Below, piece after piece: positions 11,997 to 42,876 of a DNA stretch of 48,005 nt. Positions within the stretch are counted from its first letter, which is position 1; the number at the start of each line of letters is the position of its first letter. The notes beneath the pieces were generated by a model. That model saw nothing but the letters and a program-made list of their open reading frames with translations, searched no databases and was not told where the DNA came from. This stretch comes from Clostridia bacterium (GTDB taxonomy: Bacteria > Bacillota > Clostridia > Oscillospirales > CAG-272). The DNA lies in NCBI GenBank assembly GCA_017467165.1, contig JAFTST010000016.1:1-48005 (forward strand). The letters are read 5' to 3'. A program made the position numbers and the translations under genes.

Positions 11997-12052
11997 TTGA
12001 TGCGACGCTTTAAATAATATCTCAAGGCATTTCACACCGAGATTTAAGAATG

Positions 12053-12077
12053 AAAAAGGACACCCACTAGGGTGTCC
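12053..12077 (-). terminator. Terminator of the second cloverleaf-like unit
   Basis: GGACACCC (12058-12065) pairs perfectly with GGGTGTCC (12070-12077). On the minus strand the stem is followed by TTTTT (complement of 12053-12057). Confidence 0.8.
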
Positions 12078-12078
12078 T

Positions 12079-12208
12079 GGCTCTCTGCGGAATTTCGTCT
12101 GTGACGAATATACGCACACTTGTCGCTTACGAGCGAGCTCGACACGCCTGCGTGGCGTATGCGAACCGCGCTCCGTCTCAGGACGAAGGCGGACGACCGC
12201 GCAGAGCC
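12079..12208 (-). other. Cloverleaf-like non-coding unit B downstream of tRNA-Glu
   Basis: Coordinates span the closing stem. Pairings: GGCTCT (12079-12084) with AGAGCC (12203-12208); GCGG (12087-12090) with CCGC (12166-12169), flanked by AATT and CGAA as in the T-arm of the neighbouring tRNA-Glu; CGTC-TCAG-GACG (12174-12185); GCGG-ACGA-CCGC (12189-12200). Inside the T-arm-like loop is a ~70-nt insert with TTCGTC-TGT-GACGAA (12094-12108) and ATACGC/GCGTAT (12110-12115/12155-12160). No reading frame is plausible. The layout matches unit A although much of the sequence differs. It may be an RNA gene, a decayed tRNA-derived repeat or a mobile-element remnant. Confidence 0.5.
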
Positions 12209-12215
12209 GCGAACG

Positions 12216-12244
12216 AAAAAAGCACCACCCAAAAACGGGTGGTG
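12216..12244 (-). terminator. Terminator of the first cloverleaf-like unit
   Basis: CACCACCC (12223-12230) pairs with GGGTGGTG (12237-12244). On the minus strand it is followed by C and six T. The hairpin sequence is the same as that of the terminator after tRNA-Glu at 12408-12442. Confidence 0.8.
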
Positions 12245-12401
12245 GCTCTCCGCGGAATTAGCCCGTGGGAGCTATAATTTGAGTCGATTAGCCAAGATGT
12301 AGGCTTTCTTGTGTTGTCTTGCGTGGCAAGACGACGGGCTATTTTTCGAACCGCGCGCCATCTTTTTTCGAAAAGCTGGCAGCGGATTCCGCGGTAGAGT
12401 C
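12244..12401 (-). other. Cloverleaf-like non-coding unit A downstream of tRNA-Glu
   Basis: Closing stem: GGCTCT (12244-12249) with AGAGTC (12396-12401), one imperfect pair, extendable by CCGCGG/CCGCGG (12250-12255/12389-12394). T-arm-like stem: GCGG-AAT (12252-12258) with CGAA-CCGC (12347-12354). Hairpins: GCCA-T-CTTTT-TTCG-AAAAG-C-TGGC (12357-12380) and GCGG-ATT-CCGC (12382-12392). The ~90-nt insert in the T-loop position holds TAGCCCGT/ACGGGCTA (12259-12266/12334-12341) and GTCTTGC-GTG-GCAAGAC (12316-12332). Read on the minus strand, the 3' end is GAGAGCC followed by A-CCA, as in a tRNA acceptor end. The unit lacks a 7-nt anticodon loop, so it is not a functional tRNA. Function unknown. Confidence 0.5.
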
Positions 12402-12407
12402 GAAACG

Positions 12408-12442
12408 AAAAAGCACCACCCAAAAACGGGTGGTGCTTTTTT
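12408..12442. terminator. Terminator after the tRNA-Met-tRNA-Glu pair
   Basis: AAGCACCACCC (12411-12421) pairs with GGGTGGTGCTT (12428-12438), with A-runs and T-runs on both sides, so it works in both directions. It lies directly downstream of tRNA-Glu on the minus strand. Confidence 0.88.
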
Positions 12443-12445
12443 CGT

Positions 12446-12520
12446 TGGTGACTCGTAGCGGAATCGAACCGCTGTTACAGCCGTGAAAGGGCCGTGTCTT
12501 AACCGCTTGACCAACGAGCC
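12446..12520 (-). tRNA. tRNA-Glu (anticodon UUC)
   Basis: On the minus strand the 75-nt gene starts GGCTCGTTGGTCAAGCGG and ends ACGAGTCACCA. The acceptor arms GGCTCGT/ACGAGTC pair with one wobble. The anticodon loop CTTTCAC carries TTC, the T-arm is GCGG-TTCGATT-CCGC, and CCA is encoded. The sequence closely follows the Firmicutes tRNA-Glu pattern. It is co-transcribed behind tRNA-Met. Confidence 0.96.
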
Positions 12521-12525
12521 GTAAG

Positions 12526-12602
12526 TGGTAGCGGATGTCGGATTTGAACCAACGACCTGCCGGGTATGAACCGGACGCTCTAGCCAACTGAGCTAATCCG
12601 CC
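12526..12602 (-). tRNA. tRNA-Met (anticodon CAU), elongator type
   Basis: On the minus strand the 77-nt gene starts GGCGGATTAGCTCAGTTGG and ends ATCCGCTACCA. The anticodon loop is TTCATAC and CCA is encoded. The first base pair is G-T/U, not the unpaired C of initiator tRNA. Overall sequence resembles Bacillus elongator tRNA-Met. A CAU tRNA could also be the lysidine-modified tRNA-Ile2, but the body matches tRNA-Met better. It lies 5 nt upstream of tRNA-Glu. Confidence 0.92.
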
Positions 12603-12630: not shown

Positions 12631-12659
12631 ATTATACCACAAGAAAATATAATTGTCAA
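12631..12659 (-). promoter_or_regulatory. Promoter of the tRNA-Met-tRNA-Glu transcript
   Basis: Reading leftward: TTGACA (12659-12654), a 17-nt spacer and TATAAT (12636-12631), a full consensus. It starts about 30 nt upstream of the mature tRNA-Met 5' end. If terminators leak, the same promoter could also transcribe the two cloverleaf-like units. Confidence 0.92.
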
Positions 12660-12814: not shown

Positions 12815-12843
12815 TTGACAAAGCGAGAGCCGTGTTGTATAAT
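12815..12843 (+). promoter_or_regulatory. Promoter of the Lit-like gene
   Basis: TTGACA (12815-12820), a 17-nt spacer and TATAAT (12838-12843), full consensus. The rest of 12660-12814 is AT-rich and shows nothing else I can support. Confidence 0.9.
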
Positions 12844-12903: not shown

Positions 12904-13575
12904 ATGAAAGAATCAATGAAAAACAAGCTTTTGACCTCTGTATTCGCTCTGGCTCTCATAGTTATGACGATAACCTTTTCGATAGGTCTGCCGATATACG
13001 TCAGATCCTTCTACTACGCTCATATAAATGCGCTCGATATGCCCGAGGAAACGGGCTATGACTACGACACAATCAAGGAGGCGTATGACGAGGTGCTGGA
13101 TTATCTGACTGTTCCTGGCAATGAATTTGGCACGGGCGAGCTCCGCCACAGCGAAGAGGGCGCGAGTCACTTCGCGGACTGTAAGGTGCTTTTCGACCTC
13201 AACCTCTTTGGATATATAGTATCCTCTGTGCTTGTGGTTGCTCTTGTCATTCTCTCAAAGAGGGGAGTGTTCAGCTTCACACGCGCAGGAGGGCTTGGCG
13301 TTAGCTTCTGGTCAGGCATCTCTGCTCTTTCGGCATTCGCTCTGGTCGGCGGACTCGCTGCTCTTGACTTTGATAGGGCGTTCGTTATTTTCCACAGCAT
13401 ATTCTTTCCCGGCAAGGACAACTGGATGTTTAATCCTTTCACCGACCAGATTATACAGGTGATGCCGGAGGATTTTTTCATGAACTGCGCGATACTCATA
13501 GTCAGCTCTATAATCGTTCTCTGCCTTACCTATATCATAGTAGGAATTGCAAGAAGAGATAGGACGGGAAAGTGA
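12904..13575 (+). CDS. DUF1461/TIGR01906 membrane protein, Lit-like lipoprotein transacylase
   Basis: The 223-residue protein has four hydrophobic segments (about 10-30, 100-118, 132-155, 193-215). Between the first two is an extracytoplasmic region ending in SHFADCKVLFD; between the last two is FHSIFFPGKDNWMFNPFTDQIIQVMPEDFF. Both motifs are hallmarks of the DUF1461/TIGR01906 family, which includes Lit. Lit moves an acyl chain within lipoproteins to make the lyso-form N-terminus. His89 and His164 sit where the essential histidine pair of characterised Lit proteins is expected (recalled, not aligned). The gene has its own consensus promoter and ends at a strong terminator, so it is monocistronic. 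Confidence 0.75.
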   Translation: MKESMKNKLLTSVFALALIVMTITFSIGLPIYVRSFYYAHINALDMPEETGYDYDTIKEAYDEVLDYLTVPGNEFGTGELRHSEEGASHFADCKVLFDLNLFGYIVSSVLVVALVILSKRGVFSFTRAGGLGVSFWSGISALSAFALVGGLAALDFDRAFVIFHSIFFPGKDNWMFNPFTDQIIQVMPEDFFMNCAILIVSSIIVLCLTYIIVGIARRDRTGK

Positions 13576-42754: not shown

Positions 42755-42773
42755 GATTTAAGGCAAATCACTA

Positions 42774-42854
42774 AAATCTTCCTACGACGGCATTATCCGT
42801 ATCAGGTTAAAGGGTTCAGCTATCGCTATCTCAGCCTTTCGGCACCCCTGATTC
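42774..42854 (-). ncRNA. TPP riboswitch (THI element) upstream of thiT
   Basis: Read leftward, the element contains all the landmark THI-box segments in order: GGGGTGCC, CTGAGAT, ACCCTTTAACCTGAT, GGATAATGCC and CGTAGGAAG. The ends pair through AATC/GATT. It binds thiamine pyrophosphate. With the terminator at 42712-42754, this should switch off thiT when TPP is plentiful. Confidence 0.97.
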
Positions 42855-42876
42855 TATATTCTGTTCGGTTAACTGA

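Follow-up and report, generated by a model that had tools for sequence, protein, structure and literature searches.

What are the two structured units that stand in tandem behind a tRNA-Met/tRNA-Glu pair in a member of the Clostridia, and how did part of the tRNA come to be repeated in them? The window, by which we mean the whole stretch of DNA that was analysed (48,005 nt), is from Clostridia bacterium GCA_017467165.1 (contig JAFTST010000016.1) and carries the tRNA locus on its minus strand, with the following features.

12631..12659, minus: sigma-70-type promoter-like site (TTGACA-17-TATAAT) upstream of tRNA-Met, 12 of 12 consensus bases
12526..12602, minus: tRNA-Met(CAT), by ARAGORN and Rfam
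12446..12520, minus: tRNA-Glu(TTC), by ARAGORN and Rfam; source tRNA of the T-arm GCGGTTCGATTCCGC in both units
about 12408..12441, minus: terminator-like hairpin past tRNA-Glu, inverted repeat I2 of 14 nt, 100% complementary
12244..12401, minus: unit A, whole
12382..12401, minus: unit A left arm, degenerate reverse complement of the tRNA-Glu 3′ end, read from sequence, not significant in a strict test
12357..12380, minus: unit A hairpin H1 (GCCAGCTTTT CGAA AAAAGATGGC, with an internal G/A mismatch), from fold and sequence
12347..12354, minus: unit A T-arm 5′ half (GCGGTTCG), identical to tRNA-Glu
12259..12346, minus: unit A T-loop insert, 88 nt, with a single weak relative (L080)
12244..12258, minus: unit A T-arm 3′ half (ATTCCGC) and acceptor-like GGAGAGCC, read from sequence
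12223..12244, minus: terminator separating units A and B, by terminator scan
12079..12208, minus: unit B, whole
12189..12208, minus: unit B left arm (GGCTCTGCGCGGTCGTCCGC), from fold and sequence
12171..12188, minus: unit B hairpin H1 (CTTCGTC CTGA GACGGAG), from fold and sequence
12162..12169, minus: unit B T-arm 5′ half (GCGGTTCG), matching its own tRNA
12094..12161, minus: unit B T-loop insert, 68 nt, family R1, by alignment and covariance model
12160-12155/12115-12110, minus: unit B insert helix P1
12154-12152/12119-12117, minus: unit B insert helix P2
12141-12138/12133-12130, minus: unit B insert helix P3 (CUCG loop)
12108-12103/12099-12094, minus: unit B insert helix P4
12079..12093, minus: unit B T-arm 3′ half (ATTCCGC) and AGAGAGCC, read from sequence
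12057..12078, minus: terminator past unit B, by terminator scan

Elsewhere in the window there is a TPP riboswitch (RF00059, 74.3 bits) at 42762-42859 on the minus strand, and a perfect TTGACA-17-TATAAT promoter-like site at 12815-12843 on the plus strand, before a rightward ORF at 12904.

An earlier note on this DNA had described two tandem units after tRNA-Met and tRNA-Glu, and this layout was confirmed on the minus strand. The closing stem, the GCGG hairpin and the tetraloop hairpin (here H1) that it described are readable in the units, and none of 200 dinucleotide shuffles folds as well as either unit (z at −6.1 and −3.9). The T-arm identical to that of tRNA-Glu, with an insertion of 70-90 nt in its loop, is also found in both, as GCGGTTCG/ATTCCGC split at TTCG/A (GCGG-TTCG ... 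ATT-CCGC), with inserts of 88 nt in unit A and 68 nt in unit B. A terminator behind each unit was recovered by the scan (12244-12223 for A, 12078-12057 for B); inverted repeat I2 after tRNA-Glu runs into TTTTT, yet is absent from the list of that scan. The cloverleaf-like shape was not borne out, as unit A at minimum energy folds into a multi-branch junction that has two arms and a long outer stem, GGAAU pairing with AUUCC. ARAGORN and Rfam report tRNA-Met and tRNA-Glu as the only tRNAs of the window, and neither unit is called as a tRNA.

The suggestion that A and B are one RNA with conserved folding found no support either: their inserts differ, and what is common to them is the architecture and the T-arm rather than a demonstrated homology. 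The insert of unit A is a near-orphan: among the loci fetched it has one weak relative, L080 (first-round E 0.077), strong E-values having arisen from iteration, and a single family of units A and B is not supported. For unit B the picture is different. When a stretch of the window was searched as DNA against 60 genomes of the genus, the insert of unit B proved to recur behind different tRNAs. Of the 29 distinct copies from the first round, 25 form alignment A1, aligned by sequence alone and without structure; a truncated copy, a broken one and two near-duplicates were left out. A covariance model, R1, was built from this insert family.

In A1, 93.9% of cells are paired, and double-change cells number 64, versus 17.3 in shuffles and 7-14 when the alignment is slid. 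Two other measures are modest: 13 of 25 pairs are changed on both sides (9.1 in shuffles), and there are 29 further pair types versus 26.0, a value reached by 46 of 500 shuffles. In a larger alignment fitted to the model (A2, 137 distinct rows), double-change cells number 595 versus 162.5 and fall on 22 of the 25 pairs. RNAalifold and the named structure on A1 support P1, P2, P3 and P4, P3 being closed by a CUYG loop; an inner helix, P2b, is weaker, with 73% of its cells paired in A2. Covariation beyond the controls thus strongly supports a conserved structured insert in the family of unit B, the family on which it was measured. The covariance model and homologue search that the earlier note had proposed as a check therefore returned, for unit B, homologues with covariation. 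Its comparison with Rfam by cmscan gave no credible family for the insert (window at gathering thresholds, 12040-12450 at E up to 5, nine relatives at E up to 1). Its description of the units as tRNA-derived, structured and outside Rfam is upheld on all three points, and its interpretation as a whole is partly supported.

R1 is widespread within this genus of uncultured gut Clostridia. Matches are present in at least 56 of 69 genomes of the genus (E up to 0.0001; up to 62 scored candidates per genome) and in at least 12 of 295 sampled genomes of the order, from four families (E up to 0.001; up to 14 scored candidates per genome), while among the matches listed for a class sample of 390 genomes there was none outside the genome of the window (E up to 0.0001; up to 11 scored candidates per genome). 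This genome itself carries seven copies, after tRNA-Glu (one), tRNA-Met (two), tRNA-Cys (two) and tRNA-Tyr (two). From part of the places among the matches listed we collected 156 copies, 107 of which have a tRNA of the same strand within 900 nt upstream, representing 18 isoacceptors. The 49 copies without an upstream sense tRNA comprise eight that lie antisense at tRNA-Ser, nine at the ends of stretches, and 32 in neither context. Phages and plasmids gave no R1 match and viral contigs no exact match to the core pattern, for which reason a phage or plasmid origin was rejected.

The inserts do not cluster by genome. In A2 (140 of the 156 copies, with tRNA classes taken from copies that have an assigned tRNA), mean identity is 0.599 for the same genome and different tRNA, 0.583 for different genome and different tRNA, and 0.620 for different genome and same tRNA, so that a recent burst within genomes is not supported. 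Among 45 neighbour pairs at the same locus, 40% exceed 90% identity. This slight likeness within a genome or a tRNA, together with the strong likeness within tandem arrays, points to old, fast-changing copies that are homogenised locally. Two units at tRNA-Gln, L198 and L050, come from different families (G083, f24 and G039, f1) and agree in 87 of 91 columns, which speaks for transfer. In one genome (G035), the tRNA-Met locus is found on two contigs, L292 with three tandem units and L293 with two, which hints that the copy number has changed.

The arms around the insert belong to the neighbouring tRNA. In the 107 units with an upstream tRNA, the T-stem matches its own tRNA at 7.64 of 8 inner bases, whereas permuting the tRNAs gives 4.82, with a maximum of 5.41 in 2000 runs. 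Where an isoacceptor occurs with two or more T-stem forms, the unit carries the local form (75 comparisons drawn from 57 of 84 loci: 73 better, two ties, none worse). T-loop base 57 follows the tRNA in 105 of 107 units (A to A in 8/8, G to G in 97/99), and base 55 is copied less strictly, since 23 tRNAs with C have 12 units with C and 11 with T. The tetranucleotide at the foot of the insert is TTCG in 78 of the 107 units; of the eight units at tRNAs with TTCA, six have TTCA and two TGCA. Across the 107 units, the sequence right of the insert agrees with the tRNA at 0.97-0.98 in positions 61-63 and has dropped to 0.41 at position 69, as for a short copied tract. From position 69 on it stays at 0.27-0.42 (0.27-0.36 at positions 74-76), and because the CCA of unit A in addition lies inside the stem of the next terminator, we do not regard it as the tRNA acceptor end for which it had been taken.

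To the left, the arm is the reverse complement of tRNA positions 49-76, with an identity of 0.42-0.87 per position; compared with a single other tRNA picked at random, its own tRNA is the better fit in 72 of 76 cases, with one tie. It is because the relatives show this arm that we count it as a feature; the window's own arm falls short when tested strictly as a reverse-complement copy of the tRNA (score 19 for its own tRNA, 16 for the best other tRNA, shuffle maximum 22). Hairpin H1 lies between the left arm and the T-arm, and the 5′ strand of the T-arm pairs upstream in 61 of 75 folds of that part. With a foldback and a hairpin ahead of the insert, the unit is able to form a junction in which the target's own sequence makes up the outer stem. 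Under a strict test, foldback is positive at 8 of 18 tRNA ends in the genome of the window (G000) and at 6 of 26 in another genome (G050), and the window's Glu locus fails; in loci read by eye, it extends through the trailer into the terminator stem.

Eight copies of R1 present the mirror image of this arrangement, lying antisense on the 5′ side of tRNA-Ser. Here the same insert interrupts the reverse-complement D-arm (CCGCTTCG/ATA), and the foldback repeats the tRNA 5′ end in most of the copies that were read. These copies argue that the element is independent of a downstream place in the tRNA transcript.

How can these observations be brought together? An insert that occurs in homologous form at 18 isoacceptors and mirrored at tRNA-Ser must have travelled from locus to locus, and since the arms are those of the target, they would have been taken over at or after arrival; the facts behind both steps are hard to explain otherwise. 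We therefore give about even credence to the explanation that each unit is a copy of a small non-coding structured repeat at tRNA ends, which spreads non-autonomously and takes its target's arm. Here the R1 insert, composed of a P1-P2-P3 hairpin and the P4 hairpin, splits a copy of the adjacent tRNA's arm at TTCG/A and would spread between tRNA ends as a non-autonomous element. The arm might be taken up at insertion, if structured single-stranded DNA or copied RNA re-enters at TTCG/A and the polymerase switches template, or alternatively after insertion, by repair templated on the tRNA. Tandem units would then result from local duplication, and the position behind the terminator or outside the gene would leave the tRNA intact. 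The mover could be a replication or repair process of the host. The small share of G-U pairs (about 2% of cells) is what would be expected if DNA hairpins count.

A mover encoded in the same genome was sought among four enzyme families by comparing counts, most of the genomes being incomplete. R1 is found in 56 of 69 genomes of the genus; a Y1 transposase is found in 14 (13 of the 56 R1 carriers), a reverse transcriptase in 11, an IS110-type transposase (Transposase_20) in one and a large serine recombinase in 27, and the genome of the window, which is 73.5% complete, has none of the four. As these counts do not track R1, none of the four is supported as a same-genome mover. A version of the mobile-element reading that we consider possible, at somewhat below even confidence, is a mobile nucleic acid with borrowed ends, in which the core rebuilds its arms from the tRNA beside it, sometimes carries a small gene, and is moved by something outside the four families.

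The main rival to the mobile-element reading is that the units are RNAs in the manner of the RtT repeats of the Escherichia coli tyrT operon, which stand in tandem downstream of a tRNA and each repeat its 3′ end. Transcription starting at the tRNA promoter would read through and release small structured RNAs acting in trans or on tRNA processing, with the tRNA-matched arms forming an outer stem or pairing with the tRNA. RtT appears to be the nearest precedent, as tandem R1 copies likewise hold the 3′ end of the upstream tRNA (the T-stem and a few acceptor bases, positions 61-68), and RNA is released from the tRNA operon transcript according to PMC4986893. R1 units differ in their structured T-loop insert, arms matching 18 isoacceptors, reverse-complement arm and antisense copies, and the RtT covariance model was itself unmatched in the cmscan runs given above. 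The promoter-like site upstream, the CUYG loop on P3 and the terminators speak for the RNA: a terminator-like site follows 52 of 102 sense units on their own strand and seven on the other, and one lies between the tRNA and the first unit in 70 of 76 cases (30 on the other strand). Sense folds are also slightly better than antisense folds (mean −54.7 versus −53.1 kcal/mol; lower in 43 and higher in 31 of 75, p 0.007). While the terminators thus favour RNA as the working folded form, DNA is favoured by the antisense copies and by the scarcity of G-U pairs. None of the eight antisense copies at tRNA-Ser is followed by a terminator-like site, and a functional mimic need not follow the tRNA at base 57. 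G-U pairs are mildly above A-C (68 versus 45 without P2b, p 0.038), but 19 of the A-C come from the badly aligned column P1.6 and 26 of the G-U from the T-stem, where wobbles are partly inherited from the tRNA, so that wobble is a weak guide in deciding between RNA and DNA. All in all, we judge an RtT-like RNA to be unlikely, albeit an alternative that has to be taken seriously.

Mobile DNA of bacteria is well known to land at the ends of tRNA genes, and the units could be scars or junctions of such DNA, i.e., accreted attachment sites, perhaps borders of cassettes like the attC sites of integrons. At L059 and L196, the two loci where upstream ORFs were tested against Pfam, a large-serine-recombinase gene (Pfam Recombinase) has its 3′ end at the CCA/terminator of tRNA-Glu, with units behind it; the recombinase's attachment site seems to overlap the gene end, and mobile elements have thus integrated between the tRNA and the units. 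Fragments of tRNA 3′ ends are present in L046 and L053, and of 38 pairs of neighbouring copies on one strand, three have a gene-sized stretch between them with small ORFs, most of these on the strand of the units, as for exchangeable cassettes: L046 1235-2104 (869 bp; 74 aa), L196 935-1552 (617 bp; 108 aa) and L201 793-3552 (2759 bp; 157, 121, 230 and 105 aa). These stretches speak for the mobile-element reading as well. Yet the other 35 pairs are less than 400 bp apart, the recombinase is found in fewer genomes than R1 in the counts above, and phages and plasmids gave no match, nor did viral contigs to the exact core pattern. Nor would scars lead one to expect one homologous structured insert at 18 isoacceptors, split inside the T-loop. 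The same applies to the earlier note's alternative of a duplicated tRNA end left by integration: the copied tRNA end stands, the conserved structured insert and its spread over 18 isoacceptors do not fit. We consider scars improbable. More improbable still is a mutational by-product, in which palindromes grow into the tRNA by template switching at hairpins, with neither a function nor an element behind it. The foldback seen by eye and in the strict test at some tRNA ends is in its favour, and it may fit the foldback arm alone, but it gives no homologous insert at a fixed position with double changes at 22 of 25 pairs, and is already hard to hold for the insert.

Among known systems, REP elements, MITEs and attC sites each resemble R1 in one respect. 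REP/BIME palindromes are moved by RAYT (Y1) transposases, and mini-elements derived from IS200/IS605 are a related comparison; they share with R1 the short non-coding imperfect hairpins and the many copies, and a tetranucleotide at the foot is a further likeness, though in R1 it is mostly TTCG and follows the tRNA. However, the arms of R1 belong to the target tRNA, and a Y1 transposase was not found in 55 of 69 genomes. MITEs are likewise small, non-coding, repeat-bounded and non-autonomous, whereas the inverted arms of R1 are those of the target tRNA and no parent transposase was found among the families tested. Integron attC sites also combine variable sequence with a conserved imperfect palindrome of about 60-140 nt, and R1 copies do enclose small ORFs at three loci, but A1 shows no GTTRRRY/RYYYAAC ends by eye, R1 is bound to tRNA arms, and 35 of 38 neighbouring copies enclose no gene-sized stretch. 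By kind we place R1 among the small non-autonomous palindromic elements; there is a real chance, given arms copied from the target, that it forms a separate class. A literature search, covering mostly titles and listings, gave no description of a structured element with tRNA-matched arms. The supplements of PMC8040213 hold thousands of candidate structured RNAs, and the R1 insert could be among them, unnamed.

A near base-for-base match to the tRNA at 18 isoacceptors in many species calls for a mechanism that copies the target or for selection on the match of the arms, and we know of neither for such elements. With a covariance model and 156 aligned copies, both have become testable. Such arrays could also be the reason that several contigs of these assemblies stop just past tRNA genes.

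Other sequences are found at the same kind of site. An insert of another type (2a, GCCTCGTCGTCTCC...GGAGAC-CTCGCAAG-ACGAGGC) stands at the same point of the T-loop, chiefly at the ends of tRNA-Glu and also at one tRNA-Arg end. By eye, a recurring module (TTGCCGCTCGCGG ... CTGCTCGCTTGGCAAGATACCG ... CGGTATGCG) lies downstream of tRNA-Glu in L060, L062, L068, L075 and L079. At a tRNA-Asn locus in the genome of the window (L216), tandem units repeat 30 nt of the tRNA-Asn 3′ end in full with an unsplit T-loop, and the tRNA-Leu ends L224 and L226 are similar to it. Finally, arrays of short palindromes of the type TGATGTTCGCTTCGCGAATGATGT follow tRNA-Gln, tRNA-Trp and tRNA-Cys, in the genome of the window (L220, L223) as well as in G050 (L250).
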